IMG/VR virus record: IMGVR_UViG_3300042468_001259
Span: 1-62,534 of that record
Origin: a virus
DNA length: 62,534 nucleotides
Strand: one strand, 5' to 3'
Shown: positions 22,597 through 60,785 of the stretch, piece by piece
How the letters are laid out: every line of letters starts with the position of its first letter
How positions within the stretch are numbered: the first letter of the stretch is position 1
The notes under the pieces: model-generated
What the model saw: the letters and a program-made list of their open reading frames with translations, nothing else
The model's database searches: none
What the model was told of the DNA's origin: nothing
Program-made: the position numbers and the translations under genes

Positions 22597-23583
22597 ATGA
22601 AAGTTCTACACATTTCCTTCCATTCTGGCTGCTTTAAAGATCAGTACAGCATACTTAACATTCTGGGATTTCAGGTAACGAACCTCCCATTCTATCCTGG
22701 AGCCTATACGGTATCGAGAGACATAGCATCAACTTTCTGGAATCAGCACAGAGAGCTTATCAACTCTCACGACTACGTGCTTGTGTCAGATACATCTGCA
22801 ATCACCAGATGTATTCTGCAGCACATGGATGAGTTTAAATCAAAGCTCGTTATCTGGATATGCAACAGGTTCGACTATGCTATGTGGCACGAGCCTGAGT
22901 TCTATGAACTGTTCAACAGATACAAGGACCATCCTCAAGTAAGAGTAGCATGCTACACTTTCTGGGAAAAGATATGGTGTTTGAAGCGAGGCATTGATGT
23001 TCTGTCTGCTCCTGTAATTACTCCATTAGGAAAAGCTTTGGGAGACACTATTCCAGAGGGAGAGAGTCCTTGCCATTCCTGGAAAGAGGCTGAGAGTGAG
23101 CAGAAAGAGATGATCGTACCAGGGTATAGAAACGATGTTCTGCTTGGACAAAGTTTAAAAGCGAAAGAACTCAGCGTATATCACGGAAAGTTTAAGAATG
23201 TAGCCGAGCTCTCTGGCTTCAAGGCCTATATTACTCAGCCTGATGCAATGTCTAAGCTGTTTGTCTTTGAATCGTTGCATGCAGGTATTCCTGTTGTGCT
23301 TCCGTCCATCTCGAGACTTCTCGAGCTGAGCAAAGGAGACTATCTATTCAATCTAACAGGGCATGGAGGAGGAAGCATGCTTACAGAAGATCTTGCTAAG
23401 CTCTGCGAATGGTACAATCCAGAACACAAGAGTGTGAGATTCTATTTTGAATCTGAAGAAGATATTCCAGAAATAGTAAAGAGTATAGATAGAGACAAAT
23501 TAGCTCCATATTTTAAAGATATCACAGCTAATCTAGAAAACAGTGTTTTAAATAAATGGAAAACACTGTATGATGGGTTTTAG
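22597..23583 (+). CDS. GT-B glycosyltransferase
   Basis: 328 aa from ATG 22597; a GTG two codons upstream is possible. It opens MKVLHISFHSGCFKDQ, an N-terminal Rossmann strand, and has the donor-site half near 215-255 (FKAYITQPDAMSKLFVFESL, then HAGIPVVLPS), with E in FES as the probable nucleotide-sugar contact. This fits retaining GT-B enzymes of the GT4 type in outline. It is the first gene of the fibre/glycosylation region and directly precedes the first collagen-like fibre. Sugar and acceptor unknown. Confidence 0.75.
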   Translation: MKVLHISFHSGCFKDQYSILNILGFQVTNLPFYPGAYTVSRDIASTFWNQHRELINSHDYVLVSDTSAITRCILQHMDEFKSKLVIWICNRFDYAMWHEPEFYELFNRYKDHPQVRVACYTFWEKIWCLKRGIDVLSAPVITPLGKALGDTIPEGESPCHSWKEAESEQKEMIVPGYRNDVLLGQSLKAKELSVYHGKFKNVAELSGFKAYITQPDAMSKLFVFESLHAGIPVVLPSISRLLELSKGDYLFNLTGHGGGSMLTEDLAKLCEWYNPEHKSVRFYFESEEDIPEIVKSIDRDKLAPYFKDITANLENSVLNKWKTLYDGF

Positions 23584-23610
23584 CCTTATATAGTTTGCTT
23601 TTGAATAAGG

Positions 23611-23639
23611 TTGAAATTTATTGCTGGCTACAGTAACAT
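23611..23639 (+). promoter_or_regulatory. Candidate promoter before the first collagen-like gene
   Basis: TTGAAA (23611-23616), 17-nt spacer, TAACAT (23634-23639), 13 nt before ATG 23653. A weak inverted repeat (CCTTAT/ATAAGG, 23584-23610) lies between the previous stop and this promoter and may act as a terminator. Confidence 0.5.
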
Positions 23640-23652
23640 ATAGTTATTATTT

Positions 23653-25899: not shown

Positions 25900-28800
25900 A
25901 TGAGTACTCCATTTAACAAGCCAGACGCAGGAATGCTTGATCTAATCGGCGATGTGGTTGCCGCTTCAGATGGAACGTCCACAAAAGTTGTTAAAATTCA
26001 AGGAAGACCGCTTGCTGATGTGAGTCCTTCTCCTGGTCAGGCAATGACCTGGGATGGAGCTAGCTGGACTCCTGGAGCAGGAGCTGGGAGGCAAGGAAGC
26101 ACTGGAGCAACAGGGATTCAGGGAGCTACCGGACTTCAGGGAAGTACCGGTGTAACTGGAGCTACAGGGCAAAAAGGAGACCAGGGACCTCCTAACGGAG
26201 CAACAGGAAGTACAGGGATTCAAGGAAGTACAGGAAGTACTGGAAGTACTGGAGTGCAAGGATCTACTGGAGTGCAAGGAAGCACCGGAAGCACAGGTCT
26301 GCAAGGAAGTACAGGACTACAAGGCAGCACAGGAAGTACTGGAATAACCGGATCAACAGGAAGTACAGGGATTCAAGGAAGCACAGGTCTGCAAGGAAGC
26401 ACAGGACTGCAGGGAAGTACAGGACTCCAGGGAAGTACAGGAAGCACTGGAGTGCAAGGTGCTACAGGAACGCAGGGAAGCACAGGACTCCAGGGAAGCA
26501 CAGGGCTACAAGGAAGCACAGGAAGCACTGGCGTGCAAGGAGCCACAGGTATACAAGGTTCTACTGGACCTCAAGGAGCGACTGGCTCTGGAGCTACTGG
26601 AGTGCAAGGAGCCACAGGACTACAAGGAAGCACAGGAAGTACCGGACTAGGGCATGCAGGACTAACCTCAGCATCGAGTCTCACTATAGGTACAGGGAAC
26701 AAAGCGTTTACAACAAGTCTCGGATCGTCAGCTACCGCGTTTAATGTGGGAAGTCGTGTTCGTGCCGCACACACAGCCTCTCCTGAAAACTACATGGAAG
26801 GCACTATTACGGCTTTCGCTGGAACTGCTTTAACTTTGTCTGTTGATGTTGCGGCAGGTACAGGAACGCTTACTCCGTGGACTTTTAGCATCGTCGGGTC
26901 TGCAGGAGCAACTGGAGCGACTGGAGCACAAGGAGCGACTGGAGCACAAGGAGCGACTGGGTCTCAGGGACCTGCAGGCCAGTCGACAAGCTTTTACAAC
27001 TATCAAATAGATACCGCTGTTTTTCCTACCCCTGTAGGTACATTTAGTGTCACAGGAGGACATATATATTATAACACAGCCACTCAAATTGCAGCTACTA
27101 GCATACTAGTGTCACATAAAGATGTCTCTAATAACGACATTGATATGTTTTTGGCTCTGCTAAAGAAAGACGACGTTTTTGTGATTCAACAAAAGACGGA
27201 TTCTAGCAAGTCTCAGAGATGGACTGTAAATGCTGCTCCTACACTAGTTGATAATAATTATATACTTCTTCCTGTTACCCTTACCGGAGGAACAGCCGAA
27301 TTCAATAACAATGACGCTGTTCTTTTTGCTCCTGTGTCTGGAGGATTGGTTGGAGCTACAGGAGCTCAGGGAGCTACAGGAGCTCAGGGAGCTACAGGTC
27401 CAGGAGTAACTCTTCCTGTATCCATAGGTTCAGGAGGAACAGGAGCAACAGGAATTTATGAGGCATTAAATGCCCTAAACAGTCCCATATACTATGTTAA
27501 CGTCGCACAGATAGGAAACCTATCAGGTGTGATGACAGGAGACACGTACGCCACAGGCAATCTAGCCTCGCCGATCACCTTTGATACGGCGTATAGTCCG
27601 CCGGTTAATTCTGTCATTCTATTTACTGCCCAGACAAGCAATATTCAAAATGGTTTTTGGATTATTACTTCTCTTGGAGGAGCAGGAACGCCTGCTACGT
27701 TTGAGAGACCTCCGTGGTATAAAGGCACAGTCAGAAGTGGTGTTTTGGCCTATGTACGCTTCGGATCAACTAGAGTAAACTATATATACAATGTATATTC
27801 TGCTACTGTAAACTCAGACATTGTTGTGGGTAATACAGGTATCAGCACAGTAGTCATAGGGCAGAGATCAACCAATACCACAACTGCAGGCAACACATAT
27901 ATAGCAAGACAGACATTCGCTCCAGGTTCTACCACAGGATCTCCTATTGGATTTCAGGCTGGCGTGCTATTACAGACTCCAGCTGCTCACGCTGTAGAAT
28001 GGGATAGTAATACGCTTTATGTTACAGGAAGTACCCCGTTTTCCAACGTAACAAATAACGTCGCTAGAACTAACCTTGTTAGCGAACAGCTTCCTTATGG
28101 AGGAACTATCCCAGGAGCAACAGGATTCTCTCCTGCTTCATTATACTATGCTGCAGCCTATAGCGAAACCAATATTGCTGCTACGACAACTGCAAATCAG
28201 CTTTATACCGCAGCAGGTCCTCTTGTAATAGATGGCTACACGGTACTAGCTAACGATTTGGTTCTGCTGGGAGCACAAACAACAACTCCAGCACAGAGAG
28301 GTTTGTGGAAGGTTGTTTGTGCAGGCTCTAACTACACAGGACTTGCTGCTGCCAGCTCGACCACAACACTGACCATGAGTAACGGAGCTGGAACTCCTCT
28401 CAGTCTCAACTCATATCTTCTGGGTGTTGGAGGAGCAAACAACATATACATCGCAAGCACAAACAACACGTTCTACGGCACTGTTACAACAACAAGCACA
28501 ACAAACTCACTTAGTTTGAATAACTGCAGTGGAACTCCTCTCACTGTAGGTGTTGGAATTCAAGGATTAGGTATTCCAGCAGGAACAACAGTCACAGCTG
28601 TTACATATTCACTGAGCACCACAGTGTCAGCAACAGCAACGAATACGACCTCTTTCTCAACAACTGGAGGCAATATTCTGCCTGCAGGCACATTTATTCA
28701 AGGAGCAGGGATACCTCCGAACACATTCATCGTCTCAGGAACAGGCGCACCATATACTGTTAATAATTTGGTTAATTTGACTGCAGGAGCCACGGTAACG

Positions 28801-29694
28801 AATAATGCAGTCACATGTACCACGAGCAATAATGTGAATATAGCTGCAGGGTTGCTAGTAAGCTTTAGTTCCTCGACATACACAACAAACACAACTCTCA
28901 GCATAGGAGCCAACACAGCGGTCACAGCTCCTACTGTATTGGCTCGTCCATTGTCCTTCTATCAAGGAAATTTATACAGAGGCCCTTTCCTGGTCAGTGT
29001 ATACAGAGGAACAAAATACTCTGGATACATGTTCTCTATGTACAACAGTGCAGCAGGGAACGCGACAATGATTCCCAATACTACCACAACGATTGAGGCT
29101 AGTATTGTGAATGCAAAGACAGCTAATAATGGAGCCACAGGAGCCACAGGTCCGCAAGGAGCCACAGGCTCTGGAGCCACAGGAGTTCAAGGAGCAACCG
29201 GATTAACTGGAGCAACTGGAATTCAAGGATCTACAGGACCTGGCGGGTCAGCAGGAGCTACAGGACTTCAGGGTGCTACCGGGCTAGTAGGGGCCACAGG
29301 TGCGGTAGGGGCAACAGGACTAGTGGGAGCTACAGGAGTATTTGGAGCCACAGGACTTCAGGGAAGTACAGGCCCATATAGTGCTCCGAGCACCAGAACA
29401 GTAAGTTCTGGCACAACCGACGCACTGCAGACGACAGATGCAAACAACACAGTATACTACACAGGAACAAGCGCAGTCACAATCACCGCACCTGTAGCTA
29501 CAAATGTTGCTCAAGGAACGCAAATAATTCTAGTTAATGGTTCTGCGAGTGCGCTTCACACTGTCTCCTCGGCAAACGGCGTTGTTTCTGCAGGAGGGAG
29601 ATATAAACTTGCCCAGCAGTATTCGACTGCTGTGCTTCATTGTGTATCAACAACTCCTGCTGTGTGGGTACTGAGCGGAGATCTTATCGTATAA
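25900..29694 (+). CDS. Collagen-like fibre protein 2
   Basis: 1264 aa. N-terminal 60 residues ([20 protein letters not shown]) likely attach to the virion. Collagen-like tracts occur at about 61-252, 335-357, 485-500 and 1077-1162, separated by globular beta-rich modules. The module at 360-480 (DNDID-like [15 protein letters not shown], then [14 protein letters not shown]) is of a kind often found in collagen-like phage fibres. Residues 520-1075 are Thr/Asn/Gly-rich beta structure. The C-terminal 100 residues ([19 protein letters not shown] to the end) look like a trimeric beta tip. A TAATAT box 7 nt before the ATG is a possible promoter. Confidence 0.8.
26083..26655 (+). repeat. Collagen-triplet coding repeat, near-identical 15-mers
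   Basis: A tandem array of GST/LQG/VQG triplets; the 15-mer CAAGGAAGCACAGGA and close variants recur many times, making this the most DNA-repetitive part of the collagen genes. Confidence 0.85.
29131..29385 (+). repeat. Collagen-triplet coding repeat near the C-terminal tip
   Basis: GAT/LVG/LQG triplets just before the C-terminal binding domain of collagen-like fibre 2; about 85 codons. Confidence 0.8.
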
Positions 29695-29698
29695 CCCT

Positions 29699-32600
29699 AT
29701 GCCTAGATTTCCTGGAGGAAGAGCAAAAGCACTAAATATTGTTCCAAATATTAGTGCTCAACCAGCAGCCAATACGAACGTAGGGCTAAACAGTGCTTTT
29801 GCTCCGAGTATCACCGTAAATAACGGAACACTGCCTATTGTTATAGAATGGTATAAAACAGGGTTCTCTACAGTTCTCGCTACAAGCACAGCGAATACCC
29901 TGCCATTTACATCTAATCCGACTTTGCTGGCCAATGCAGGAACTGCAGATATTGCTACATATTATGCAAAAGTCACAAACAGAGCAAACACCCTAGGCTC
30001 GAACTCCTCGAACACAACACTAGGAATACTTCCATCAGCTCCAAACACAATAAGTCTAGCAGGGAATGGTACAGCTCGTACGCTGGTGATTACTTTTGGT
30101 ACAGGAGCAGGAAACACGTACCTTAACGGAGGGACCTTGTCGGAGTTTATATATACAATATTTAGCGATGCAGCATACACAACTCCTGTAGCAGGATTAA
30201 GTAACGTGGCTACGCCTGCACAGGCTAAAACTGTAACTGTAACAAATTCAAATTTAAATAATGGAACAACATACTATGCTAGAGTATTTGTAAGAACGCT
30301 GAGTTCTGGAGATAGTTCGCCAGCCTCTTCAGCAGGAGCATTTCCCTACGCTCCTCCTCAGGCTCCTTCTGGCATGACTGTTGCTGGTAACGGAACATCC
30401 AATACTCTGGTAGTTACATTCCCCACACAGACATCCACAACTTTAAATCATTCTACTTTTGGTTCGTTTGAGTATTCCGTGTATAGTAATAGCGGACTTA
30501 CAAACATCGTAGGAAGCTACTCTGCAGTAACAACAACAAACACAACTGTAACTCTTACGAATGCTTTGTTCGTTAATGGAACGACATACTATGTAAGAGC
30601 GAGAGTATATAGCTCTAATGCAAGCTATGGCGACTATGCTAGTGCTTCTGGAACTCCTACAACGGTTCCGTCGGCTCCGACGAGCGTGACGTTAACTCGG
30701 TCAGCATCACAATCACTCTCGCTCTCTTTTGGAGCAGCAACAGCTCAAGGAGCAGCTATCACAGGCTATCAATACTCTGTGTTCACTGACCCAGGACTTA
30801 CAGCGGCGGTCGCAGGCAAGGTAAATGTAGCTGCTGCGGTAGGCACTAACTCTATTACTGGCCTCACAAACGGAACAACCTATTATGTCAATGTATGGGC
30901 AACTTCAGCCCTAGGAGCAGGAACAGGTAGCGCTGTTAGCGCATACCCATTCGAATTTCCTACAGCTCCAACAAGTGTGTCGCTGGGTTCGGCAGGCAAC
31001 GGAGTACTTACACTCACTTTCGGAGCAGCAACAGCTCAAGGAGAAGCTATTACAGGGTATAATTATACATTGTATACCGATGCTGCTCTGACAGCTGCCG
31101 TGGCAGGCAAAACAGATGTGGCAGGAGCATCACCTAGTGGCACTGTTATTTCTGGCTTGGCTAACGGTACGACCTATTATGCGAGAGTATACGCAACCAC
31201 AGCGCGAGGAAATGGAACGGCGGGATCATTCACGGCAGGAGCGACACCATTTACTACACCTACAGCCCCAGCAAGTGTAACGCTCGGTTCTGCTGTAAAT
31301 GGAGGACTAACTCTAAGCTTTGCAGCCTCAACAGCGAGAGGGTCTGCAATCACAGGATACAGATATACACTATATACAAACTCAGGACTTTCTACTGTTG
31401 TGCCTGGTAGACAGGACGTGGCTGTGAGTGTCGGAAACACTGCTATTACAGGATTATCGAACGGAACAACATACTATGCAGCTGTGTACGCTACTAGCGG
31501 AGCTGGAAACAGTGAAACAGGCACGTTTACATCTGGATTGATGGTCGGCGCAGCGGCAAATGCCCCAACAGGCGTAACCCTCACCGTAGCTTCTTCAACA
31601 AGCCTGAATGTTTCTTTTACAGGCAGCGTTACGAACGGATCCACAATAAACAGCTATGTGCTGACATTACGCACAGTAGCAGCATCTACAGGTCCGGCTG
31701 TGCCTGCATATAGCGGAGTAACCATCACTAGTGGGGCAGTACTAACAGGACTTGTAACAGGAACAACCTATTTTGCTGATGTTGTGGCAAACTATACTTT
31801 TGGAGGATCAACCGCCAACACAGCTGCAGGAAGTTCTTCTGGAGTCACGTGTGCTGTTGCCCCTGCTGCACCTAGCTCTGTAACTCTTGCAGCAGCCTCA
31901 AGCACATCAGTCACACTATCGTTTGTTACAGGAGTGACAAACGGAGCCACAATAAATAATTACACCTATAGTTTAAGGGCAGGCGCGTCGTATGCTGTAA
32001 GTAGTTATGTGGCAGGGCAGCAGAACATAAGCACCACAGCAACATCCGGAATACCTATAACTGGCCTCTCCACTGGTACAACCTACTACGCCGAAGTTAA
32101 AACAAACTATACTGTAAACGGCGTGGCAGGCAGCACAGGAGTAACAGTATCCTCTGGAGTCACAACTGTTGGCGTTCCTAGTGCTCCTTCAAGCATAACA
32201 CTAGCCGCCACAAGCGGCACAACGATGAGTTTGACGTTTACCCCAGGATCACTGAATGGATCAACTCTCACAAACTATAGCTATAGCCTAAAGAGATCGA
32301 GTGACAACGTGGTTGTGTCAGGTCCAACCACAACAAGTTCGACCAGCGGCATAGGAATCTCTGGGCTTACAGCAGGAACTACATACTATGCAGAAGTCTG
32401 GACAAACAGCAATCTAGGGGAAGGAGCTCGAGGAACATCCACTGCTGTGCTGTGTGCAGCTGCTCCATCAGCTCCTTCAGGAGTGACTCTGACAGTTGCG
32501 TCAGCCACAAGTATGACGCTCTCTTTCACTCCAGGAGCAACAAACGGATCTACATTACAGACAAACCCGTACAATTATACTATAAATGTAGGCTCGGTAT

Positions 32601-34630: not shown

Positions 34631-34675
34631 AAATATATAGACATTAGTTTGTAGTTTGATGTAGTCTGCTTGGGT

Positions 34676-35824
34676 ATGACACAACTACACTGCCTAGGAT
34701 TACCGCACACAATAACTAATGCTGACTATGTCGCTTGCGCTTTTACTCAGAAAGTACGCAAGTTTTTAACGATGTTTAAAGACAGCGACAAATACAGAAC
34801 CATACACTACGGACACAACAAATCAGATACAGACGCTCACGAGCAGGTTGATGTTACAAGTGATGAAGTACTAAACTCTGCTTATGGAGATTATGATTGG
34901 AAGAAAGGGTTCTTTAAGCACGCTACAGATGACCTTGCTCACAAGGTATTCAATCAAAACGCAGGAAGAGAGATTCTAAAAAGAAAGAAAAAGTCTGATC
35001 TTGTGTTAGCTTTCTGGGGAGGAACAAGAGAAGCGTGCGAGATCGCCAACAAAGACGGAGATCTTATTGTTGTTGAGCCTGGTATAGGTAGTGGCTGGGC
35101 TTTTGCGCAGTTTAGATGTTACGAAAGCTATCCTTTAAAAGGAGCATATGTGGGCACAGACGGCGTATCGTTCTGTAATCCTACCTGGTATCACAGAATT
35201 GTCCCAAATTATTTTAATCCTCTAGAGTTCGAGGCAAAATCGGAAAGAGAGGACTGGGCACTATATATTGGTAGAATAGGAACAAACAAAGGTCTCGACC
35301 TCGCTATTGATGCCTGCAAGAGGCTAGGAGTTAAACTTAAGGTGTGTGGTCAGGGAGGACCATCAGACATCGGAATGACTGAGTGGCCTGCGCATGTTGA
35401 ATATCTTGGCTATGCTGATGTGGCTACTAGAAAAGACCTTATGGGCAGAGCCAAATTCGGGTTCTTATTGTCTACTTATTGGGAACCATTTGGCGGAACT
35501 GCCGTAGAGATGCTGTTCAGCGGCTGTGTTCCTATCTGCGCAGACAACGGAGCAATGACCGAGTACATCGTTGATGGAGTTAACGGATTTAGATGCAATA
35601 CGATGGGAGACATACTGCGAGCAGTACGTCTGGTCGATACTATTGATCGCAATAGATTGGTAGCTTTCGCAAACGATAACTTTAGTCTCACTGCAGTAAA
35701 ACCCAAGTTTGAGAGGGCTTTTGACGACTTCAGTGACGTCTTCAACAAAGAAGGTTGGTATACTGATCACAATCGTACTTTGGATACAGGTCTCGGATTA
35801 AACTTCAAAGCGCTATACGTATAA
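34676..35824 (+). CDS. GT4-type glycosyltransferase
   Basis: 382 aa from ATG 34676 (a TTG two codons upstream is less likely). N-terminal half begins TQLHCLGLPHTITNADYVAC, a form I recall from other phage GTs. C-terminal half has YIGRIGTNKGLDLAIDACKR, VCGQGG, VEYLGYAD and the E-x7-E donor motif EPFGGTAVE, all hallmarks of retaining GT4 enzymes with a GT-B fold. It sits between the FN3 fibre and a methyltransferase, in a run of five sugar-modifying genes up to 39047. Next gene starts in TAATATG. Confidence 0.9.
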   Translation: MTQLHCLGLPHTITNADYVACAFTQKVRKFLTMFKDSDKYRTIHYGHNKSDTDAHEQVDVTSDEVLNSAYGDYDWKKGFFKHATDDLAHKVFNQNAGREILKRKKKSDLVLAFWGGTREACEIANKDGDLIVVEPGIGSGWAFAQFRCYESYPLKGAYVGTDGVSFCNPTWYHRIVPNYFNPLEFEAKSEREDWALYIGRIGTNKGLDLAIDACKRLGVKLKVCGQGGPSDIGMTEWPAHVEYLGYADVATRKDLMGRAKFGFLLSTYWEPFGGTAVEMLFSGCVPICADNGAMTEYIVDGVNGFRCNTMGDILRAVRLVDTIDRNRLVAFANDNFSLTAVKPKFERAFDDFSDVFNKEGWYTDHNRTLDTGLGLNFKALYV

Positions 35825-51861: not shown

Positions 51862-52821
51862 ATGAGCGACAAATCTTTGTTTGTAGTCGTACCGTATTTT
51901 AATTTTGTAAATTACTCCTCAGGATTAAAAAATCTAAACAGGTTTGTAAGCCAGATGGCTATGTACCCTGACATTAAAATGGTGTTGGTAGAAGGATACA
52001 GAGAGACTAGCCTGCCTGATTTTACAGAAAAAATTTTCAAGCATATTAAAGTTCATCTTCCTAGCGTTTTGTGGGTCAAAGAAAATTTAATAAACATAGG
52101 CGTAGCTAGTTTGCCTGATGATTGGAAGTATGCCTCTTGGATAGACAGAGATATTTTATTCACAAATACAAGCTGGGTAGAGGAGACTATCCAGCAGCTA
52201 GAATACAACGATCTCGTGCAGCCTTGGACCTCTTGTGTTTTTTTAGATAAAGATCACCTTCCTGAAACTATAACAAAACACACGGAGTCTGTTGTTTTTG
52301 CTGAAAGCTTTTGTAGCTTTTTTGCGAAAAACACAATGACTACAGATAACTGGCATAGAGCCACGCCTTCCACGATAGGAAGGCTTACCACTAATGTATG
52401 GGGAGGACATCCAGGACAGGCCTGGGCGATAACCAGAGAGTTCTATACAAAGCTAGGAGGATTGTACGACAAAGGGATTGTAGGAGGAGCAGATTCACTA
52501 ATCCTGATAGCTAAGTTAAAACTAAAAAGTACAGGCATGCTGGCTGGGATTGCTGAGGATGCTGCAGAGCATATAGGAAAACTGACCAACGCTCGAATAT
52601 CTAGTGTGCGAGGCTTGGTTTGTCACTATAGTCATGGAGAGATTGAAGACAGGAACTATACACACAGACATAAAATATTGACGAACAATCAGTACAGTCC
52701 TGAAACTTGTTTAAAATATACCTCAGAAGGAGTTTTGACCTACAGAGAGCAAAATACAGCTCTCGAGCAAGAAGTTTATAACTATTTTAAAATGCGTAAA
52801 GAAGATGGAAATAACCAATGA
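51862..52821 (+). CDS. GT2-like glycosyltransferase
   Basis: 319 aa. GT-A style: VVVPYFNFVNYSSG at the N-terminus, D95-R-D97 in SWIDRDILF as the probable DxD site, and the late block GQAWAITREFYTKLGGLYDK followed by GGAD, comparable to the GT2/GT-A acceptor-loop region. Highly diverged from standard GT2. 3 nt after the two-domain glycosyltransferase and overlapping the next methyltransferase by 17 nt. Confidence 0.75.
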   Translation: MSDKSLFVVVPYFNFVNYSSGLKNLNRFVSQMAMYPDIKMVLVEGYRETSLPDFTEKIFKHIKVHLPSVLWVKENLINIGVASLPDDWKYASWIDRDILFTNTSWVEETIQQLEYNDLVQPWTSCVFLDKDHLPETITKHTESVVFAESFCSFFAKNTMTTDNWHRATPSTIGRLTTNVWGGHPGQAWAITREFYTKLGGLYDKGIVGGADSLILIAKLKLKSTGMLAGIAEDAAEHIGKLTNARISSVRGLVCHYSHGEIEDRNYTHRHKILTNNQYSPETCLKYTSEGVLTYREQNTALEQEVYNYFKMRKEDGNNQ

Positions 52822-53386
52822 CTCTAGACTGGTCAGCATTACCCTGGAAGGGACACAATACATATCCTTGCGCTATATGATGCCTTGGAATCCTCTGAGC
52901 CCTAAAGGAATACAAGGCCTGCTTCATTTGGCTCAAGATGTGCAGGAGAAGGCAAAACATAAAAGTATATGGGTCGAAATAGGCACACACCACGGAGAGG
53001 CGGCAGCGCTGTTATTAGGGTTTAGATACATAAAAAAGCTACATTGTGTAGACATACTGGAAAATTCTTTAAGCGCTAGAAGATTGAAAGATGCTATACG
53101 TGAGGGCCGCTGCGTGCTCCACAAAAAATCATCACTAGATTTTTCTGAGGAAATAGATCAAGTTGACGTAGTGTACATCGACGGGAACCATAACTATGGG
53201 GATGTAAAGTCAGACATCGCTGCATGGTACGACAAAATTCCTTCTGGTGGAGTACTTGCAGGACACGACTATAATCAGGTAAGCTGGCCTGGCGCAGTAA
53301 AAGCAGTAGATGAATTTTTAGCTAATAATAAAGAGCTCACCCTACAAAAGTATATAGATTCTAGTTGGGCTATATTTAAACCGTAG
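52805..53386 (+). CDS. Methyltransferase_24-type SAM methyltransferase
   Basis: 193 aa, overlapping the previous gene by 17 nt. Core: WVEIGTHHGEAAALLL (57-72, motif I), HCVDILENSLS (motif II acidic residue), VVYIDGNHNYGDVKSDIAAW and GGVLAGHDY. This IDGNHxY/GGxxxGHDY pattern is typical of Methyltransf_24 enzymes and related cephalosporin-hydroxylase-like proteins in surface-sugar clusters. Expected role is O-methylation of a sugar; acceptor unknown. Confidence 0.85.
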   Translation: MEITNDSRLVSITLEGTQYISLRYMMPWNPLSPKGIQGLLHLAQDVQEKAKHKSIWVEIGTHHGEAAALLLGFRYIKKLHCVDILENSLSARRLKDAIREGRCVLHKKSSLDFSEEIDQVDVVYIDGNHNYGDVKSDIAAWYDKIPSGGVLAGHDYNQVSWPGAVKAVDEFLANNKELTLQKYIDSSWAIFKP

Positions 53387-53486: not shown

Positions 53487-53924
53487 ATGAAGGTGTATCG
53501 GTATTTTTTTATGCTTTATGCAGCTCTCATATTTATTTTTGTTGTTATGCCGCTATTGACTAAATTTACAGATATCAGACGAGCTTCTGGAGTTCTAGAC
53601 AAGTTCTCTAGAACCAATCCACTATACTTCTATGCCGTAGGCAGCGACACACAGTGGACTAATCTGGCTAACTGGTATAAAAATCTTAGCCGTAAAACAA
53701 ACGCAACGAGTTTACCGACCAGTTCATCAAAAGTTACATTACTCTCTAGTTGCGCAGCGAATCTAGACTCTTCGAGTTGGGTAACGCCTAAAAGCATATA
53801 TCTAGAAAAAGATGTTACCTTGACCCTAACGTCTACCGCAGCCACACCTCCAGCTTTTTCTTGTTCAGTGTACGGAGAAAGGTCTGCAAGACTAATAGCA
53901 AATAATGTAGCTCTGCGACCTTAG
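53487..53924 (+). CDS. Membrane-anchored small protein
   Basis: 145 aa, ATG 53487 with a GGAG at 53473-53476. An N-terminal membrane helix (6-26, FFMLYAALIFIFVVMPLL) with one basic residue pair before it is followed by a polar beta-rich region (NATSLPTSSSKVTLLSSC, EKDVTLTLTSTAATPPAF). It may be an anchor, signal-anchor or a virion protein made in the membrane; the next gene follows after 1 nt and encodes a beta-ladder fibre, and the end of this protein resembles that ladder. Function unknown. Confidence 0.65.
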   Translation: MKVYRYFFMLYAALIFIFVVMPLLTKFTDIRRASGVLDKFSRTNPLYFYAVGSDTQWTNLANWYKNLSRKTNATSLPTSSSKVTLLSSCAANLDSSSWVTPKSIYLEKDVTLTLTSTAATPPAFSCSVYGERSARLIANNVALRP

Positions 53925-53925: not shown

Positions 53926-55413
53926 ATGGCTGACCAGAATCAAATATTTGTAAACACCACACTGAATGCGGGAGCAACTCTGCACACTACTGTGCACGGA
54001 GAGGTGGAAATAAACGAAGGAGGAGGCAATTGCGGTACGGTGATAGGAAATATTAACGTACGCAAAGGAGGAAATCACGGGAAAAGCTGTCCAACAAGCA
54101 CACTATGTACAGGGAAAGTGGTTGTCGACGCTGAGGGAGAAATATATGGTCAAGTCTTGGGAGAGGTTGTTCTCAATGCAGGAGCGATAGCTGGTAGTCC
54201 TAATCAGCCTGCAGTAGTTACAGGAAAGGTAGTGATACGGAATAACGCTATAATAAATAACGTAACAGTATATGGTGACGCCAGAGTTCAGAGGCTTGCA
54301 AATACAGCTAACGCAGCGATATACGGAGCAGTTACCGAGTATAAAGTTGGTCCTTACATAAACGCGTATTATGGAGATAACGGAGAGATTGCTTCCGCTA
54401 CGGTAATAAATCTGCCTACCCCTGCTCTGGATGGTCCGGCTAATGTATACTACAATTACTCTGCAGGGTCTTCTAATCCTGCTAATGGATATTACAGCAC
54501 TGGGAGATATTTAAATGGAGGTATCACTACTGTACCTGTGCCTACGCCTCGCCCAGCAATAGACGATGGGATATTCAGAGTATACAACGTCGCAGGAAGA
54601 GATAATGCTCCGACGCAAACACCAACAACCCGAGTTGCCAGTGGAGTATACAGCAACGGCTACTTTCAATCTGGAACTTTTTACTATCCAGCTTTTGGAG
54701 AAGTTAAACCTAGCGTGCCTCTAGATATACCTGCAGCAGCGAACAGGAGAGTGTATTTCCAAGGAGCCGACGCTATTTTTGATGCATACTCTGGACTAAA
54801 CGCAGGAACAGGAGGAACACCCGAATATGTTCCTGCTGACCCTGGCGGGACAGCTACAGGATCGGCGGCTTTTGCTGCAGGGACAGATCGTTGGGAAGGA
54901 GACACAGCAGGCTGGAGTGGATATAGCTCGAGAGGATGGGTGTCGGGGCCTTATACTACAGGATTTTACAATAACGGGTATTTAAGTACCCCTCCAACAG
55001 GAACAGGGTTTACGAAAACTATCGATGGAAACCTCATAAGGTCAACTACAGGAACGCAGACTTCTGAAACTACACTGGCTGCAGCACGATACAACTCAGC
55101 TGGAGAGCCTCTAGAGCTTAACAAAGGTTACCTGGGCAATGCCTACGGAGGTTCCACGTCTTCTCGTAAGGAAATATGGGTACCACAAAATCAGACACTC
55201 GGCTTAGATGCGGAGGTATTTGCAAATCCAAATTTATCGACACCTCTAGCTCAGGACTTCAGCTACAACAACTTTATTTACTCAGTAAACTTATCAGGAG
55301 TTATCGACGAGATTACTCCTTTACCTACAGGATATACTTCTACCACTCCAATAGCTGGGATGGGTAGTTTCCCCAATTCAACAAATTCAGGTTCTACAAC
55401 CATAGTTATATGA
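53926..55413 (+). CDS. Beta-ladder fibre protein with GYF/GYY modules
   Basis: 495 aa. The first 140 residues read as a short-step beta helix, with G.V/G.I ladders (HGEVEINEGGGNCGTVIG, TGKVVVDAEGEIYGQVLG, VTGKVVIRNNAIINN). This resembles polymer-binding or bactofilin-like beta-solenoids. Then repeated modules with [NST]G[YF][YF] (NGYYSTGRYLNGG, NGYFQSGTFYYP, NGYLSTPPTG), the same flavour as in the LRR fibre. Expected: tail-fibre or whisker component. Its stop overlaps the next GT gene as ATGA. Confidence 0.75.
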   Translation: MADQNQIFVNTTLNAGATLHTTVHGEVEINEGGGNCGTVIGNINVRKGGNHGKSCPTSTLCTGKVVVDAEGEIYGQVLGEVVLNAGAIAGSPNQPAVVTGKVVIRNNAIINNVTVYGDARVQRLANTANAAIYGAVTEYKVGPYINAYYGDNGEIASATVINLPTPALDGPANVYYNYSAGSSNPANGYYSTGRYLNGGITTVPVPTPRPAIDDGIFRVYNVAGRDNAPTQTPTTRVASGVYSNGYFQSGTFYYPAFGEVKPSVPLDIPAAANRRVYFQGADAIFDAYSGLNAGTGGTPEYVPADPGGTATGSAAFAAGTDRWEGDTAGWSGYSSRGWVSGPYTTGFYNNGYLSTPPTGTGFTKTIDGNLIRSTTGTQTSETTLAAARYNSAGEPLELNKGYLGNAYGGSTSSRKEIWVPQNQTLGLDAEVFANPNLSTPLAQDFSYNNFIYSVNLSGVIDEITPLPTGYTSTTPIAGMGSFPNSTNSGSTTIVI

Positions 55414-56471
55414 TAACCGAAGAAAAATTGCTTAGTGCTCTGCACACAGCTATAGATGACACAACTACGGAACATATTAAGCTTGTGGACTCAAGCGTGT
55501 GGCGAGATGGAGCAGCTCCAGAAGTGGAGTTACCCACAGACCGCAGAGCTATCTGGACTGAGCCTTATCCTGGAATATACATCATCAACGTCAACGGAGT
55601 AAGACATTTCAAAAAGCAGTTCGGATCGATTCAAGAGCTTTTTAAAAAGGCGGTAGCCGCGAATTACACGATAAATTCTTTAGCCTTTGACGTGCCTTCG
55701 AAGCCCAGACTTTTTAACTTTAAAAGTACAGAGAAAACTAGTGTAGCCATAATTACTATGTTTTCTCCAAAAGCCTCAAGAGACTGCTGGTTAGAATTTA
55801 TTAAAAATGTGCAATTTCCTGACGATGTCGAAGTTGATGTGATTCTGGGAGATAATAGCGGAAACACAAACGTAAAAAATCTACAAGTTCAGCTAAAGAG
55901 TGAGTTGTCTTTAAAATATAGAGACATACACATTTTAGATTTGGGAGACCCTTACGAGGTTAAACCTGAAGACCACTATCTAGAAATGCACAAGCATGCT
56001 CATGTGGCTGTGAATTATTCGATACTGCTGCAAGAACCCTCCGAGCACTTCGACTATATACTAAAAATAGAGGACGATATGGAGCCTCCAGAGGACGGAT
56101 TTGTAAGACTCTACGAGCAGATAAAAAATTTAGAGAAACAGAAAAAGAAAGTGGCTTGCGTAGGAGGGTACTATAGGCAGAAACTGGACCCTTCGACACC
56201 ATGCCTATCTATGCAACCTTTCATATGGGGTAAGACTCCCAAAATTGAAGACATGCAGCCTAGACTGATACGGGTAGAGATGCAAGGAGGAGGATTCTCT
56301 TTGTACAACTGTAAAGCGTTACAAGAGGTGCTTCCGTATAGGCTGACGTTTAAAAGACCTCACGGTAATTTTTATATGACTGGCTGGGACGGTAGCATTG
56401 GAGAAGAATGGTCAGCGTCTGGATGGGAACAATACTGCGACGGAACACTTTTTTGTAAGCATCATTTTTAA
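55410..56471 (+). CDS. GT2-like glycosyltransferase
   Basis: 353 aa, ATGA overlap with the fibre. N-terminal 110 residues (MITEEKLLSALHTAIDDTT) are extra. The GT-A part begins VAIITMFSPKASRDCWLEF with VILGDNSGN as the nucleotide-binding turn, then YILKIEDDMEPPEDGF with EDD at about 221-223 as the DxD site. The late block GGGFSLYNCKALQEVLPYRL and W..GSIGEEWSASGWEQYC fit the acceptor region. Part of a run of five glycosyltransferases and a sulfotransferase through 60785. Confidence 0.8.
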   Translation: MITEEKLLSALHTAIDDTTTEHIKLVDSSVWRDGAAPEVELPTDRRAIWTEPYPGIYIINVNGVRHFKKQFGSIQELFKKAVAANYTINSLAFDVPSKPRLFNFKSTEKTSVAIITMFSPKASRDCWLEFIKNVQFPDDVEVDVILGDNSGNTNVKNLQVQLKSELSLKYRDIHILDLGDPYEVKPEDHYLEMHKHAHVAVNYSILLQEPSEHFDYILKIEDDMEPPEDGFVRLYEQIKNLEKQKKKVACVGGYYRQKLDPSTPCLSMQPFIWGKTPKIEDMQPRLIRVEMQGGGFSLYNCKALQEVLPYRLTFKRPHGNFYMTGWDGSIGEEWSASGWEQYCDGTLFCKHHF

Positions 56472-56474: not shown

Positions 56475-57269
56475 ATGAACTACCTTTCTGCCACAACCAT
56501 AGTTAAAAATGAAAAGCACTATATTAAAGAGTGGCTGGCTTACTACAAGAGCATGGGAGTCGAGCAGTTCTATATCTTTGATAACGGATCCACGGACGGA
56601 ACAGAAGACGAAGTGTATGATTTACCCTTTTCGGACGATATAAACTTCATAGACTTTAAACTAAATAAAACAGACAAAATTGCTTCCGCTTATAACTTCG
56701 CAGTTGAATACTTTAAGAGCAAAACAGAGTGGATGATATTTTGTGATCCTGACGAGTTTTTTATACCTCAAGCTGTGGATGATTTGAGGAAATTTCTTGA
56801 AGACTACGAGGAGTTTTCTGGAGTAGGCGCAAACTGGAGAACGTACGGATCTTCTGGACACATTCTGCGACCAGTCTCAGGTCTTTGTGTTGAGAATTTT
56901 TTAAACAGAGGCAAAGACGACTGGTGCGTGAACTTGCACGTCAAAAGCATTGTAAAACCTAGCGAGGTGATAGGTTATCTAAATCCTCATGTATTTAATA
57001 CTTTAAAAGGAACTGCTGACGAGAACGGAGAATTAATTAAAGGAGAAACTCCAGGTAGACTAGAAGCTGTTAATGGGAGTAAGATAAGAGTTAATCAATA
57101 TTTTACAAGAGCTTACGAGGATTATCTAGAAAAGTACAGAGCTAGCGACAAAACTTCGAGTAACTTTAAAGAACGTGCGGATATTGATTGGTTTGATGCC
57201 TACGACATTAATGAAGTCTATGACGATACCGCAAAACAATACGCAGAGCAAATAAGACAAAATTTATAA
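56475..57269 (+). CDS. GT92-like glycosyltransferase
   Basis: 264 aa. Opens MNYLSATTIVKNEKHYIKEW, then WLAYYKSMGVEQFYIFDNGS and MIFCDPDEFF (DPDEF at 91-95, metal site), the set found in Glyco_transf_92 and the related Glyco_tranf_2_4 family. It is shorter than eukaryotic GT92 and close to bacterial forms, usually involved in polysaccharide or glycan branch transfer. Next gene begins in TAATATG. Confidence 0.9.
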   Translation: MNYLSATTIVKNEKHYIKEWLAYYKSMGVEQFYIFDNGSTDGTEDEVYDLPFSDDINFIDFKLNKTDKIASAYNFAVEYFKSKTEWMIFCDPDEFFIPQAVDDLRKFLEDYEEFSGVGANWRTYGSSGHILRPVSGLCVENFLNRGKDDWCVNLHVKSIVKPSEVIGYLNPHVFNTLKGTADENGELIKGETPGRLEAVNGSKIRVNQYFTRAYEDYLEKYRASDKTSSNFKERADIDWFDAYDINEVYDDTAKQYAEQIRQNL

Positions 57270-57270: not shown

Positions 57271-58083
57271 ATGGAAAAAATTCCCTGGTTCATCTGTCTT
57301 AACGACAGAAAAAACATATATAACGATCTAGCTAAAATAGCGGCCAAATCGTCGGAGGTGTGCGAAAATTTTGACCGTTACTGTCTGTATGCTGGAGAAG
57401 ACCAAGCATTCGTAGATTACCTTACAGGTACAGGAGTCACAGTCATTAAACATAAATCGACATTTACTGACGATATAAACAAGACAAATCGAATCCCTGG
57501 TGAAAAACTATTGATGCAGGGTACGTATATGCGTATGGATATTCCAAAAGTAATGCATGAGCGCGGACTAGACTACTCGCACTACTTCTATACAGATACT
57601 GACGTAATTTTTCAGAAAGACCCATATACCGAACTTGTAGATAATCTACCCTCCACTATAGCAGCTACAGGAGAATTTACAGAGCAAGGCAATGTTAAGA
57701 ACTTGTTTAATGCAGGAGTTATGCTGTGTAACACACGATACATGTACAACAGTTACGAAGATCTTATACAGTTTGTAAAACTAGGTAAGTACAACTTTCA
57801 AGCTCATGATCAAGGAGCTTTAAATATTTTTTACAAAGACGCAGTCTGCAAATTTTCAGATCTTCTTAATTGGAAGATTTACTGGGGAATTAACAAAGAA
57901 GCTTATCTTGTCCATTTTCACGGACTTAAAATAGACCGTCTGGAAGACTTTGTTACCCTGGACCGTGAAAAGTTTTTACAAAAATGGCCTATGATTAGGC
58001 ATATTGTAAACTACAAGCCAGACACAGGCGAAGCGCTTAACTATTACTACAACACATATAAACAACAGCTAGCTTCTTTGTAA
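57271..58083 (+). CDS. GT8-like glycosyltransferase, paralogue A
   Basis: 270 aa. IPWFICLNDRKNIYNDLAKI at the N-terminus, DTD at 109-111 in YFYTDTDVIFQKDPY, NAGVMLCNTRYM, HDQGALNIFY and late HFHG: the block order of the GT8/GT77 group of retaining GT-A enzymes. The next gene is a clear paralogue, so the pair arose by tandem duplication and may transfer related sugars. Confidence 0.9.
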   Translation: MEKIPWFICLNDRKNIYNDLAKIAAKSSEVCENFDRYCLYAGEDQAFVDYLTGTGVTVIKHKSTFTDDINKTNRIPGEKLLMQGTYMRMDIPKVMHERGLDYSHYFYTDTDVIFQKDPYTELVDNLPSTIAATGEFTEQGNVKNLFNAGVMLCNTRYMYNSYEDLIQFVKLGKYNFQAHDQGALNIFYKDAVCKFSDLLNWKIYWGINKEAYLVHFHGLKIDRLEDFVTLDREKFLQKWPMIRHIVNYKPDTGEALNYYYNTYKQQLASL

Positions 58084-58085
58084 TT

Positions 58086-58889
58086 ATGAGCTCAATACCC
58101 TGGTTCATCTGTCTTAATGATCTATATCAAGAGCAAGCAAAAGTGGCTGTAGCTACTGCCGAAATTTGTAAAAACTTTAAGCGCTATTGTCTGTATAACG
58201 GCAATGATGAGGCTTTTGTTCGTTTCTTGGAGAGCTATGAGGTGACTGTAATAAGAGGAGAGTGCGCTATACATGACGAAATCCACGAGTATGTGTCTGA
58301 CCCTAACGAAGTGCGCACAGCCTGTTCCACATATCTTAGGTTAGATGTTCCTGTTGTACTTAAAAAGCTCGAGGTTAAAGCATCGCATTATCTGTATACG
58401 GATGTGGATGTTCTTTTCCAAAGTGACCCGTACGAGTTACTCAACAGCTATTTGCCAGAGACTTTTGCTGCTGCAGGAGAGAACGCTAAAAATTGTGATG
58501 TAAGCAAACATTTTAATGCAGGAGTGCTGTGGTGCAATAGTGAGTACATGCTCGAAACATACGACGCGCTCATCACAAGCATTACAGATAAACAGTTTAA
58601 ATTCGCAGGAAGAGACCAGGGAGCTCTGAATAGCTTTTATAAGACCTCAGTTAAAAAGCTTAGCGATCTATTGAATTGGAAAACTTACTGGGGTATAAAT
58701 GATGATGCAAGCATTATACATTATCACGGAATGCAGAGCGATCGTGCTGAAAAACTGATTGAGCTTGGAGCCTCTCTTTTTGCTGAACGAATCCCTGGAT
58801 TAAAGCCGCTGGTATGTCATAGTAAACACGCGGAGGAATCAATAATTCACTATTATCGTAAATTTCAAAGCCTGCTAAAAACTTTATGA
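58086..58889 (+). CDS. GT8-like glycosyltransferase, paralogue B
   Basis: 267 aa, 2 nt after paralogue A. Shares IPWFICLND, a DVD motif at 106-108 (LYTDVDVLFQSDPY), NAGVLWCNSEYM, RDQGALNSFY, LLNWKTYWGIN and a C-terminal HYHG. Identity to paralogue A looks moderate (about one third to one half over the core, by eye), so the duplication is not recent. ATGA overlap with the sulfotransferase gene. Confidence 0.9.
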   Translation: MSSIPWFICLNDLYQEQAKVAVATAEICKNFKRYCLYNGNDEAFVRFLESYEVTVIRGECAIHDEIHEYVSDPNEVRTACSTYLRLDVPVVLKKLEVKASHYLYTDVDVLFQSDPYELLNSYLPETFAAAGENAKNCDVSKHFNAGVLWCNSEYMLETYDALITSITDKQFKFAGRDQGALNSFYKTSVKKLSDLLNWKTYWGINDDASIIHYHGMQSDRAEKLIELGASLFAERIPGLKPLVCHSKHAEESIIHYYRKFQSLLKTL

Positions 58890-59794
58890 ATATTATCTAC
58901 AATAAAAAACACGACTACGTGATGTGTTACGTGCCCAAGGCAGGATGCAGCCTCATGCGTAAAATATACAAAGACTTTCACGAAGATGAGTACTCTTCTT
59001 GGGACGGGCTTAATTTCAGCTCGCTATTTGTTACCGGCAACGACAAGCCTCAGGTCTATGCAACAAGCAACAAGTTTATTTTGGTTAGGAATCCTTATAA
59101 GCGAGTACTCAGCGCCTACTATGATAAGTTCTTACATGTCCAGGGAAGCCAAACAACTCTTTCTGTAAAGTTTGTAAATTTATTTAAATTGTACTGTATT
59201 ACAAAAGATGCAGAGCTGGTAGCCACTGCTTCAGACAATGACGAGCTGCATAGATTGTCTCCGTCATTAAAATCATTGATCAGAAAGGCGAAGCTGCCGA
59301 TCAACCTAGGTGATGTGCCTGACGACTTTGATACTTCGTTTAGAAGGTATCTGGAGTTTTTAAAGTTCTTTAAAGCTAACGGAATCTTCAATCTCGAAGA
59401 GCACCACGAACTTCAGTGCTTTTATCCCTACCCTGGCTGGGAGCTCGACAGGATTTTAAAAGATATATATGTAATGGATATTGAACGTCTTCCTGACGGT
59501 GTAGCAGAGTTTTACGGAAGATTTTTAAGCGAAGGGGATCTTGCCCGGATAAAAGAGCTGACTGCACAAAATTTAAAAGTACATGCGAACAGGAACAGCA
59601 CCGCCCCTAAAAAAGATCTGAGAGGCAGCATTTCTGCAACCACACACGGAGACGAAATTGTGAAATTGGCTACAGAAACCAACACACTACCAGATCATTT
59701 CACTATGTTTGATCCGGACACAGAGAGCTTGTTTTACGAGATATTTGCAAAAGACTTTACCGCGTTTAACTATAAGAGAATGTATGAAAAATAA
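58886..59794 (+). CDS. Sulfotransferase (Sulfotransfer_2-like)
   Basis: 302 aa. The 5'-phosphosulfate loop is CYVPKAGCSLMRKIY (14-28), close to the VPKTGGTSL/VPKAGCS form of carbohydrate sulfotransferases; the 3'-phosphate block is FILVRNPYKRVLSAYYDKF (about 62-80). Length matches family 2 and the HNK-1/chondroitin-type bacterial relatives. It would move sulfate from PAPS to a sugar hydroxyl, in the cytoplasm. It sits among glycosyltransferases in one operon, so a sulfated glycan product is likely. Sulfotransferases are unusual in phages. Confidence 0.85.
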   Translation: MNIIYNKKHDYVMCYVPKAGCSLMRKIYKDFHEDEYSSWDGLNFSSLFVTGNDKPQVYATSNKFILVRNPYKRVLSAYYDKFLHVQGSQTTLSVKFVNLFKLYCITKDAELVATASDNDELHRLSPSLKSLIRKAKLPINLGDVPDDFDTSFRRYLEFLKFFKANGIFNLEEHHELQCFYPYPGWELDRILKDIYVMDIERLPDGVAEFYGRFLSEGDLARIKELTAQNLKVHANRNSTAPKKDLRGSISATTHGDEIVKLATETNTLPDHFTMFDPDTESLFYEIFAKDFTAFNYKRMYEK

Positions 59795-60785
59795 AATTTG
59801 TTTGGTTCTTCCCTATTACGGACCGTTTCATGCCTACTTTAATTTGTTTCTACATAGTGTAGGCAGAAACAAAGACTTTTTTGATTTGTTGCTGGTTACA
59901 GATCATCCTGTGCCCGATCTACCCTCGAACGTTTATAACAAAATCTATTCAGTTGATGAGGTAGGTAAGAGAATAACTGCAGCTATCAAAGATTGGTTTT
60001 CGGTAGATGTGGCTACACCCTTTCCTGAAGGCAAGATGTCCAACGGAAGACCGGCGCTGTATAAACTGTGCGATTACAAATTTCTTTATGGTGACGTGTT
60101 TGCTGAAGAATTGCAGAGCTACCCTTATTGGGGGTTTGTAGACTGCGATCTTATTTTTGGAGATGCTTCCAAATTTCTTCAAGACTTTGAACAATACGAC
60201 TTTATAGGCAACAGAGGTCATCTTTGTTTTTTAAAGAAAGGGGACAAAGCTAAAAATATTTTATTGGATGTGTCTAACTGGCCAAATCACCCAAATTACA
60301 TGCCGTCTAGACTAAAAGAAGCCAAGGAAAGTATCCCGAAGACTAGAGATCAACACCTACTAGATGAGGGATGGTTTCAATGTACACTTAAAATGTATGC
60401 CGGACTTTATCCTGATAAGTTCAAGTATTTTTATACTGCTTACTCGGGAATAGTGGCAGACACTTATCACCCAGGAGCTGAAAATAAATTATATTTTGAT
60501 AAGCTACAGGCCAGGTTTGAATTCCCTGAAAAGCTACCAAATGGAGTAGCTCAAACAACTTTTAAAAATTTTGAAGAGCAGTATTTTGCGTATTTAGACG
60601 GCAGGGTTTTTCGCAAGAGCTTTGCAAATGCTTACGATTCTTGCGAGCACTTGTATGTACATCTCATAGGACGTACGTCTTATGCTAGCAATAATGTCGG
60701 ATTCAAAGACTACGACTCAAAACTGAACTTCACCATTAAACCTATTTTAACCTTCGACAAAATCGAAGAAGACTACGAAATCTAA
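59784..60785 (+). CDS. DUF6625 glycosyltransferase-like protein
   Basis: 333 aa from ATG 59784; a longer frame opening at 59709 lies inside the sulfotransferase gene and is rejected. Opens MKNKICLVLPYYGPFHAYFN and then LLLVTD, the DUF6625 hallmark; the DxD-like site is VDCDLIFGD near residue 120. DUF6625 proteins occur in bacterial polysaccharide clusters and are predicted GT-A glycosyltransferases. Overlaps the sulfotransferase stop by 11 nt. Last gene of the glycosylation region. Confidence 0.85.
   Translation: MKNKICLVLPYYGPFHAYFNLFLHSVGRNKDFFDLLLVTDHPVPDLPSNVYNKIYSVDEVGKRITAAIKDWFSVDVATPFPEGKMSNGRPALYKLCDYKFLYGDVFAEELQSYPYWGFVDCDLIFGDASKFLQDFEQYDFIGNRGHLCFLKKGDKAKNILLDVSNWPNHPNYMPSRLKEAKESIPKTRDQHLLDEGWFQCTLKMYAGLYPDKFKYFYTAYSGIVADTYHPGAENKLYFDKLQARFEFPEKLPNGVAQTTFKNFEEQYFAYLDGRVFRKSFANAYDSCEHLYVHLIGRTSYASNNVGFKDYDSKLNFTIKPILTFDKIEEDYEI

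Follow-up and report, generated by a model that had tools for sequence, protein, structure and literature searches.

This study describes an island of about 38 kb, at positions 22591-60785 of a 62,534-base virus record from IMG/VR (IMGVR_UViG_3300042468_001259; the whole of this stretch is referred to as the window), in which fibre genes, four of them with collagen tracts, are interleaved with genes for enzymes that add sugars, methyl groups or sulfate. Support for the island as a unit is good. In the explanation that we favour, and to which we give an even chance, the region is a hypervariable tail-fibre island for host recognition, and soluble enzymes made by the phage assemble a glycan on its own fibres. 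The uncertain step is the acceptor, for which the virion is plausible and somewhat likelier than the host surface. That the same kind of block is kept by related phages suggests self-decoration of the fibres.

Organization and recurrence of the island

The window, classed as linear and probably a fragment, represents part of the genome of a large tailed phage, whose relatives measure up to 204 kb. The gene at 785-2578 (- strand), named portal on the strength of one annotated match (Salmonella phage Arash), has relatives of about 80% identity on IMG/VR contigs as long as 204 kb and remote ones (23-25%) in four phage-collection records; in a 198-kb relative the portal homologue (G022:150113-151876) aligns across one in-frame TAA. 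The island contains 25 main genes, referred to below by their first positions, all on the + strand and with gaps of -86 to 100 bases. Because same-species contigs (G008, G009, G014, G015 and L043) repeat parts of the window at ~99.98%, extending it on both sides, and because the island recurs in relatives, the arrangement is more than chance. A megablast search with 22597-46000 against the phage collection gave no match. Scans for promoters and terminators gave counts close to those of shuffled sequence and were uninformative; in the second half, promoters were clearly fewer (24, with 40.9 expected).

Homologues of the left flank (up to 21983) and of the right flank (61747 and 62004) are kept in the relatives G001 and G002, and the genes between them are mostly replaced. 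The G002 island, at 64955-92772 between the homologues of 21983 and 61747, holds collagen-like fibres, a GT4 glycosyltransferase 69% identical to that of gene 34670, a homologue of 55410, a methyltransferase related to 52805 and a relative of 39123; further glycosyltransferases (GTs), a GT-D type protein and a pyruvyltransferase-like protein of the polysaccharide type were recognized there by eye. The G001 contig begins inside the island, which extends up to 13868, before the homologues of 61747 and 62004, and it carries two collagen-like fibres, a 55410 homologue and two long GT-like genes. As judged from these homologues, the two relatives hold an island of the same kind at the same site, though most of its genes differ. 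All seven matches to PF00535 or PF13692 in G001 (two), G002 (three) and G022 (two), in contigs of 167, 204 and 198 kb, respectively, lie inside the island. That G003, G004 and G007 gave no collagen matches, and G003 and G004 no GT2/GT4 matches, is uninformative, because these contigs end near the expected start of the island as placed by homologues. Two other records, L107 and L341, keep 55410, GT2_4, GT8, GT61 and DUF6625, L107 with two DUF6625 genes and also with the GT4 and, as seen by eye, a methyltransferase; a portal relative was not found in these two records, which may be incomplete.

It is distinctly unlikely, in our judgement, that the island is instead a recombination hot spot gathering cargo, with GTs and fibres brought together by shared turnover and acting on mixed targets. 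Most window enzymes indeed have no blastp match in G001 to G007, G010 and G011, and some GT4 loci lie among non-structural genes, but against this reading stand the joint recurrence of 55410, GT2_4, GT8 and DUF6625 in L107 and L341, that of the GT4 and methyltransferase genes in L142, L143, L144 and L158, where the homologue of methyltransferase 35826 (71-84% identity) overlaps or follows the GT4 gene, and the C-terminal tails found beside 55410.

The GT4 family and its gene neighbours

The product of gene 34670 (34670-35824, +) is a GT4 glycosyltransferase, as the sequence-only reading had it (PF00534, 1.3e-14), of the phage-abundant family phrog_3408 (3.4e-98). Of the 52 phage-collection records with this PHROG 3408 GT4, 51 bear the name of a Synechococcus phage, and a profile scan found it in at least 589 IMG/VR stretches as against 22 in genome_contigs, where one of the two patterns was a residue longer than in the IMG/VR scan. 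Cyanophage S-CAM7, with a recorded Synechococcus host, carries the GT4 (44.9%) between genes annotated as 'late control gene D protein' and 'tail protein', with a 2-oxoglutarate (2OG)-Fe(II) oxygenase two genes on. This GT4 family accompanies fibre or tail genes in phages that evidently differ in type.

Collagen open reading frames (ORFs), taken as those with at least ten consecutive Gly triplets, are present in 34 of the 80 viral GT4 loci kept. Such an ORF lies within 3 kb of the GT4 gene in 19 of 46 clusters, compared with a random-gene mean of 12.9 (0 of 2000 draws reach 19), and is adjacent to it in 9/46, compared with a mean of 4.95 (59 of 2000 draws reach 9); the excess is modest because the control is strict, the random genes being taken from the same loci. 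A Pfam-confirmed 2OG-Fe(II) oxygenase is the next upstream + ORF in eight clusters (L168, L169, L174, L178, L182, L192, L199 and L215), and L175 and L193, left out of the Pfam scan, have a similar look. Oxygenase, GT4 and collagen genes are successive + ORFs in four of the 46 clusters (L174, L178, L182 and L199), and by analogy these rows may resemble a phage version of collagen hydroxylation and glycosylation. At L115, a GT cluster includes an oxygenase and a Sulfotransfer_3 protein. Elsewhere among phages, GT25 (L277 3967-4791, 6.7e-12) and PLOD-type GT domains (best 3.9e-49) are encoded near collagen-like genes.

The GT2, GT4 and GT8 families are typical of envelope glycans. It is possible, if doubtful, that the enzymes modify a host surface polysaccharide (O-chain or capsule) during infection and so block superinfection or the re-adsorption of progeny to debris, the GTs sitting with the fibres since both concern the receptor. 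Besides family membership, the polysaccharide pyruvyltransferase-like gene seen by eye in G002 speaks for such a target, and it is the published reading both for the fibre-island GTs of pelagimyophages, in a part of PMC7029224 that also ties GT8 to envelope glycans, and for cyanophage GT clusters, described as acting on the outer polysaccharide in passages of PMC7824862. However, by hydropathy alone no island ORF has more than one transmembrane-like window, the only stretch seen in an enzyme being a marginal one in methyltransferase 35826 (Kyte-Doolittle 1.62). The island thus shows no flippase, polymerase or GtrA/GtrB-like protein, and the features of serotype-conversion gtr systems (a membrane flippase and a membrane-spanning polyprenyl-phosphate GT) are absent on the same measure. 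The occurrence of one GT4 family with fibre and tail genes across phage types also argues against a host target, as does the interleaving and overlap of the enzyme genes with fibre genes, from which their expression is probably late.

Enzyme 55410 and the adjoining C-terminal tails

Gene 55410 (55410-56471, +) has no family match. Eight aligned sequences share invariant motifs, including E221 D222 D223 (EDD), and its structure model (mean predicted local distance difference test score, pLDDT, 71.6, with residues 268-293 and 313-353 under 50) aligns to many GT-A structures with Z of 10-12; on model and alignment, it is predicted to be a GT-A-fold glycosyltransferase. The best Foldseek match of the model was human COLGALT1 (9evj, E 4.9e-6). 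The idea of COLGALT as its specific nearest fold was dropped and only the GT-A fold is claimed, because many GT-A enzymes tie on realignment. Sequence searches of solved structures with 55410, 49798 and 58886 returned nothing significant. Relatives of 55410 occur on eight IMG/VR contigs (G001, which is L340; G002, which is L108; L107, L109, L110, L111, L112 and L341), with same-species copies in L105 and L106. In genome_contigs, 42 pattern matches yielded no confirmed bacterial homologue, which is weak evidence of absence because two short patterns were used.

A distinctive short C-terminal tail usually marks a gene beside 55410. In the window, the preceding gene 53926 (53926-55413, +), a probable fibre, has the Ser/Thr-rich tail FPNSTNSGSTTIVI at its end, and its stop overlaps the 55410 start; in the window and G001, this gene ends FPNSTN(S/A)GSTTIV(I/L), although blastp found nothing in the relatives that matches the body of 53926. 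In G002, L109, L110 and L112, the gene before the 55410 homologue ends DSGQTSSQGS(R/S)FS(A/E)GVTY(A/G). A GITF or GITY followed by a few residues closes the neighbours on both sides in L107 and the downstream one in L341. Of 1107 ORFs of the 55410 contigs, 9 fit the pattern G-[IVS]-T-[YFT]-x(0-7)-end, all nine touching a 55410 gene (upstream neighbours 7/8, downstream neighbours 2/8). The pattern is found in none of 534 portal-locus ORFs and none of 195 bacterial GT4-locus ORFs, in 2/1075 viral GT4-locus ORFs, which again belong to the L107 contig, and in 5/678 ORFs of the collagen sample, beside which no 55410 gene was noticed. We treat this association as a lead, because the pattern was drawn up after the sequences had been seen and about four classes of carrier can be told apart, some of which are not Ser/Thr-rich. 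With the 53926 stop overlapping the 55410 start, where no clear Shine-Dalgarno sequence was seen, nucleotide constraints could add to the conservation of the tail.

A bolder proposal, which we hold to be unlikely, is that 55410 would be a tag-directed GT acting on short C-terminal tails that end in G-[IVS]-T-[YFT], and that this, taken with the oxygenase-GT4-collagen rows seen in other phages, would form a phage counterpart of collagen hydroxylation and glycosylation, to which sulfation and methylation are added in the window. If it were true, a phage could swap the body of a fibre yet keep its glycan; the tail, Ser/Thr-rich in fibre genes, would be grafted onto neighbouring proteins that are otherwise unrelated. 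Repeats of the form LPxDFDxxxYRxxNxDL...HYxxxGxxExR lie on or beside GT genes (L107 2647-3090 and 4128-4520; L341 7076-7423) and at the N-termini of G001 5120 and G002 81275.

Collagen tracts and threonine content

The sequence-only reading took Thr in the third position of the collagen triplets (G-x-T) as a glycosylation cue. The Thr-rich third position holds: in uninterrupted window runs of at least 12 Gly triplets, the third residue is Thr in 148 of 255 and Gln in 63 of 255, with Pro at X in 12 of 255. As an argument it is weak, with no clear tie to GT neighbours. The comparison sample comprised 80 of at least 120 IMG/VR stretches found by a Gly-triplet DNA pattern and chosen regardless of GTs; their third-position Thr fraction ranged from 0 to 0.88, and 22/80 reached 0.40. 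Kept for the comparison were 22 Thr-rich and 28 Thr-poor loci, of which 19 and 27 gave ORFs; the other 30, with middle Thr content or not collagen-like by rule, were left out. Within 5 kb of the Thr-rich collagens (86 ORFs) there were three GT25, two PLOD GT domain, three 2OG-Fe(II) oxygenase, two epimerase and at least one GT2 matches, and within 5 kb of the Thr-poor ones (105 ORFs) two GT2, one GT17, one GT1, two oxygenase and one Methyltransf_24 matches; these tallies cover the first 25 families out of totals of 54 and 72, respectively, with single matches hidden, and one protein can match several families. The rule that G-x-T implies glycosylation was therefore unsupported as a predictor of GT neighbours in this 80-locus test. 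In the window, gene 22591, whose neighbour 23653 is a collagen gene, gave no GT match, and no established GT directly adjoins a collagen gene.

The sulfotransferase

The sulfotransferase named earlier was confirmed as gene 58886 (58886-59794, +; PF03567, 2.1e-14). The match spans only profile positions 2-107 of 252; PKAGCSL and RNPYKRVLSAY, found by eye, correspond to known motifs of the site for 3'-phosphoadenosine 5'-phosphosulfate (PAPS). Three of eight records have PF03567, namely the window and the same-species G014 and G015, and it is absent from G001, G003, G004, G005 and G025. It occurs in none of the 48 records carrying the GT4 or 55410 families, two of which have PF13469, and in none of 14 control genomes; an IMG/VR scan with the 58886 protein kept three loci, all 100% identical. 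A PF03567-type sulfotransferase is rare among the GT-carrying records and unusual in such an enzyme set. We know of no sulfated glycan on a phage virion, and a literature search found no paper that joins phage, glycosyltransferase, sulfotransferase and tail fiber.

A role of the GTs, and perhaps of the sulfotransferase, in modifying the bases of phage DNA as a protection against restriction is highly improbable: the GT families found here are, we take it, not those of T4-type DNA GTs, their genes are interleaved with fibre genes, and relatives exchange most of the set yet keep its place. In favour of a DNA target, phage GTs are known to glucosylate DNA, as related in a section of PMC12619734. 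Excerpts of PMC10829341 report nucleotide sulfation in phages and link virus sulfotransferases and GTs of an underground estuary to nucleotide or protein modification, and a coral-associated phage with a sulfotransferase domain appears in part of PMC11309003.

Gene content of the island

All four collagen-like fibres of the sequence-only reading were recovered with PF01391: 23653-25866 (737 aa, E 2.7e-44), 25900-29694 (1264 aa, with non-collagen parts, 1.9e-36), 39696-40625 (309 aa, 6.5e-15) and 40694-43153 (819 aa, 1.5e-42), all, like every main gene of the island, on the + strand. The multi-FN3 fibre (29699-34630, 1643 aa, PF00041, 4.5e-71) and the LamG/ConA-like fibre (43168-45159, 663 aa, PF13385, 1.3e-17) were likewise borne out. 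The large probable fibre at 45161-49789 (1542 aa), read earlier as a leucine-rich repeat (LRR) fibre, has no LRR match and only a sub-threshold Bactofilin match (0.0014); it and 53926 have the look of repeat fibres and belong to no family.

Of about eleven GTs proposed, seven are supported by family, homology or fold (34670, 38367, 49798, 55410, 56475, 57271 and 58086), one (59709) is a DUF6625 protein, and 22591, 37369 and 51862 are not established. Gene 38367 (38367-39047) encodes the expected GT2 enzyme (PF00535, 1.6e-7; phrog_22332, 1.5e-19). For 49798 (49798-51858), described as GT25 plus GT61, the GT61 assignment stands for the C-half (PF04577, 2.1e-14), but that of GT25 is not confirmed, the first 401 residues having no GT match up to an E limit of 10; a single-sequence model of this N-half, which has no family, was unusable (pLDDT 32). 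The GT92-like call agrees with 56475 (56475-57269), a GT2_4/GT92-type enzyme (PF13704, 1.2e-15, and a second match of 3.3e-13; 53% identity in L341 and L107), and the GT8-like pair with 57271-58083 and 58086-58889. The latter matches PF01501 (7e-7). The former has no significant Pfam match (best PF03407, 0.019) and is placed by homology, being 48% identical over 221 aa to a GT8-like L341 protein (8211-9005) that also matches 58086 (46%). Gene 22591-23583 (330 aa, GTG start), called GT-B in the sequence-only reading, has no family match, and 37369-38370 is only a candidate GT-B enzyme (PF13524, 0.02, under the cut-off). No GT match was obtained in family searches with 51862-52821 (319 aa). The statement that the named families were established holds for most of them and was overstated for GT25, LRR and three of the eleven GTs.

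Both methyltransferases were found, at 35826-36359 (PF13489, 5.5e-12) and 52805-53386 (Methyltransf_24, PF13578, 7.3e-16). DUF6625 is confirmed at 59709-60785 (PF20330, 1.4e-36; relatives in L107 and L341), and its true start is probably further in than the TTG that gives an 86-base overlap. The remaining genes encode a 328-aa protein without a match in family searches (36376-37362), a 189-aa protein between enzyme and fibre genes (39123-39692; 48% to G002 90986-91483) and a 145-aa protein with one N-terminal hydrophobic stretch (53487-53924; Kyte-Doolittle 2.51).

Upstream of the island, 14667-15938 and 16069-17484 encode two DUF1501 proteins (6e-112 and 9.3e-128) with twin-arginine-translocation (Tat)-like starts by eye (RREF and RREL), both matching relatives in G003 and G006. 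DUF1501 is typical of Planctomycetota and Verrucomicrobiota, and the pair is a possible hint at the host of this phage. N-terminal helical motifs of the type YGFVKKANEFGYTDEQAVALLKSA recur across several proteins (17941-18492; G002 61760 and 62448; G006 4271 and 5449) and are perhaps a virion or packaging signal. Gene 19492-21981, outside the interval of the sequence-only reading, has by eye a GT-B-like N-half and no Pfam match even at E 10.

Target of the enzymes

The claim that the enzymes build a modified glycan on the fibres is supported as far as a fibre-tied glycan-building set is concerned, but the virion as acceptor is plausible only. In self-decoration as we envisage it, fibres and enzymes would be produced together, as the observed gene order, small gaps and overlaps suggest, probably by late co-expression. 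The GT4 34670 and the GT-A enzyme 55410 may start O-glycans on Thr/Ser of the fibres, with the collagen G-x-T tracts, the Ser/Thr-rich C-terminal tail beside 55410 or both as acceptors. Judging by their families, GT2_4, GT8, GT61 and perhaps DUF6625 would lengthen the chain at the expense of host nucleotide sugars, and both methyltransferases and the sulfotransferase would cap it with S-adenosylmethionine (AdoMet) and PAPS of the host. The glycan could then stiffen or protect the fibres or alter their binding, and may in this way mask or retune the virion.

Several observations weigh against this picture. PAPS and the sugar donors must come from the host, and the lack of membrane spans is also compatible with a host target because soluble GTs assemble lipid-linked host glycans as well. 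The excess of GT4-collagen adjacency is modest; some GT4 genes stand beside neck-like genes or among non-structural ones (the latter, by eye, in L185 and L218), and GT4 34670 itself adjoins the FN3 fibre and not a collagen gene. G-x-T richness is common among phage collagens, and GT families were not clearly commoner near Thr-rich than near Thr-poor collagens (86 versus 105 ORFs). To the post hoc origin and mixed carriers of the tail pattern is added the gene upstream of the L341 homologue of 55410, which has no tail. One of three PF13692 matches in S-CAM7 is far from fibre genes, and the 136-kb contig G026, perhaps of another lineage, has GT matches at three distant places. If the enzymes nevertheless act on the virion, glycan-decorated fibres could be common among large aquatic phages, given the number of IMG/VR stretches with the GT4, and phage fibre-island GTs published as host-surface enzymes would need new annotation.

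Comparison with known systems

Virion glycosylation has been observed elsewhere: the C-termini of mycobacteriophage capsid and tail-tube proteins carry glycans (Freeman et al. 2023, as told in a section of PMC12619734, which also places GTs in the core of a different lineage of large aquatic phages). This C-terminal modification resembles what is proposed for the Ser/Thr-rich tails beside 55410, although there the glycans were seen on capsid and tail tube, whereas here fibres are proposed and known from genes alone. Glycosylation of giant-virus fibrils, as outlined in part of PMC10117803, likewise relies on the virus's own glycan genes for surface fibrils, but those are eukaryotic viruses with sugar-synthesis pathways, none of which was recognized in this window. 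In Clostridioides difficile spores, according to passages of PMC7157674, SgtA is encoded directly upstream of bclA3, beside the collagen-like gene, and adds N-acetylglucosamine to Thr (and Ser) of collagen-region peptides, with Thr of G-x-T as the acceptor; BclA3 is, however, a bacterial spore protein with GPT triplets, whereas the window has Pro at X in few triplets and collagen genes without a directly adjacent established GT. The human collagen-modifying enzymes COLGALT1 and LH3 share the collagen context, and COLGALT1 was the top Foldseek match of 55410, but the likeness extends only to the GT-A fold.

The closest counterpart is the host recognition cluster (HRC) of pelagimyophages and cyanomyophages, described in the excerpted part of PMC7029224 as hypervariable, with GTs beside tail fibres that are read as host O-chain enzymes; in passages of PMC7824862, cyanophage GT clusters are similarly read as outer-polysaccharide enzymes. 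Both the HRC and this island are large and hypervariable and combine fibres with several GTs in the structural region, and triple collagen repeats are also reported among the structural proteins of the HRC phages. The known HRC site lies between VrlC and the neck gene gp14 of a T4-like structural block. The present lineage is a different one, its portal being only 23-25% identical to those of four phage-collection records, and GT61, DUF6625 and a sulfotransferase, present here, are not mentioned in the part of PMC7029224 drawn on. With conserved flanks, variable content, tail fibres and several GTs, the island is a host recognition cluster, a known kind of region, whose enzyme set includes an unusual sulfotransferase.

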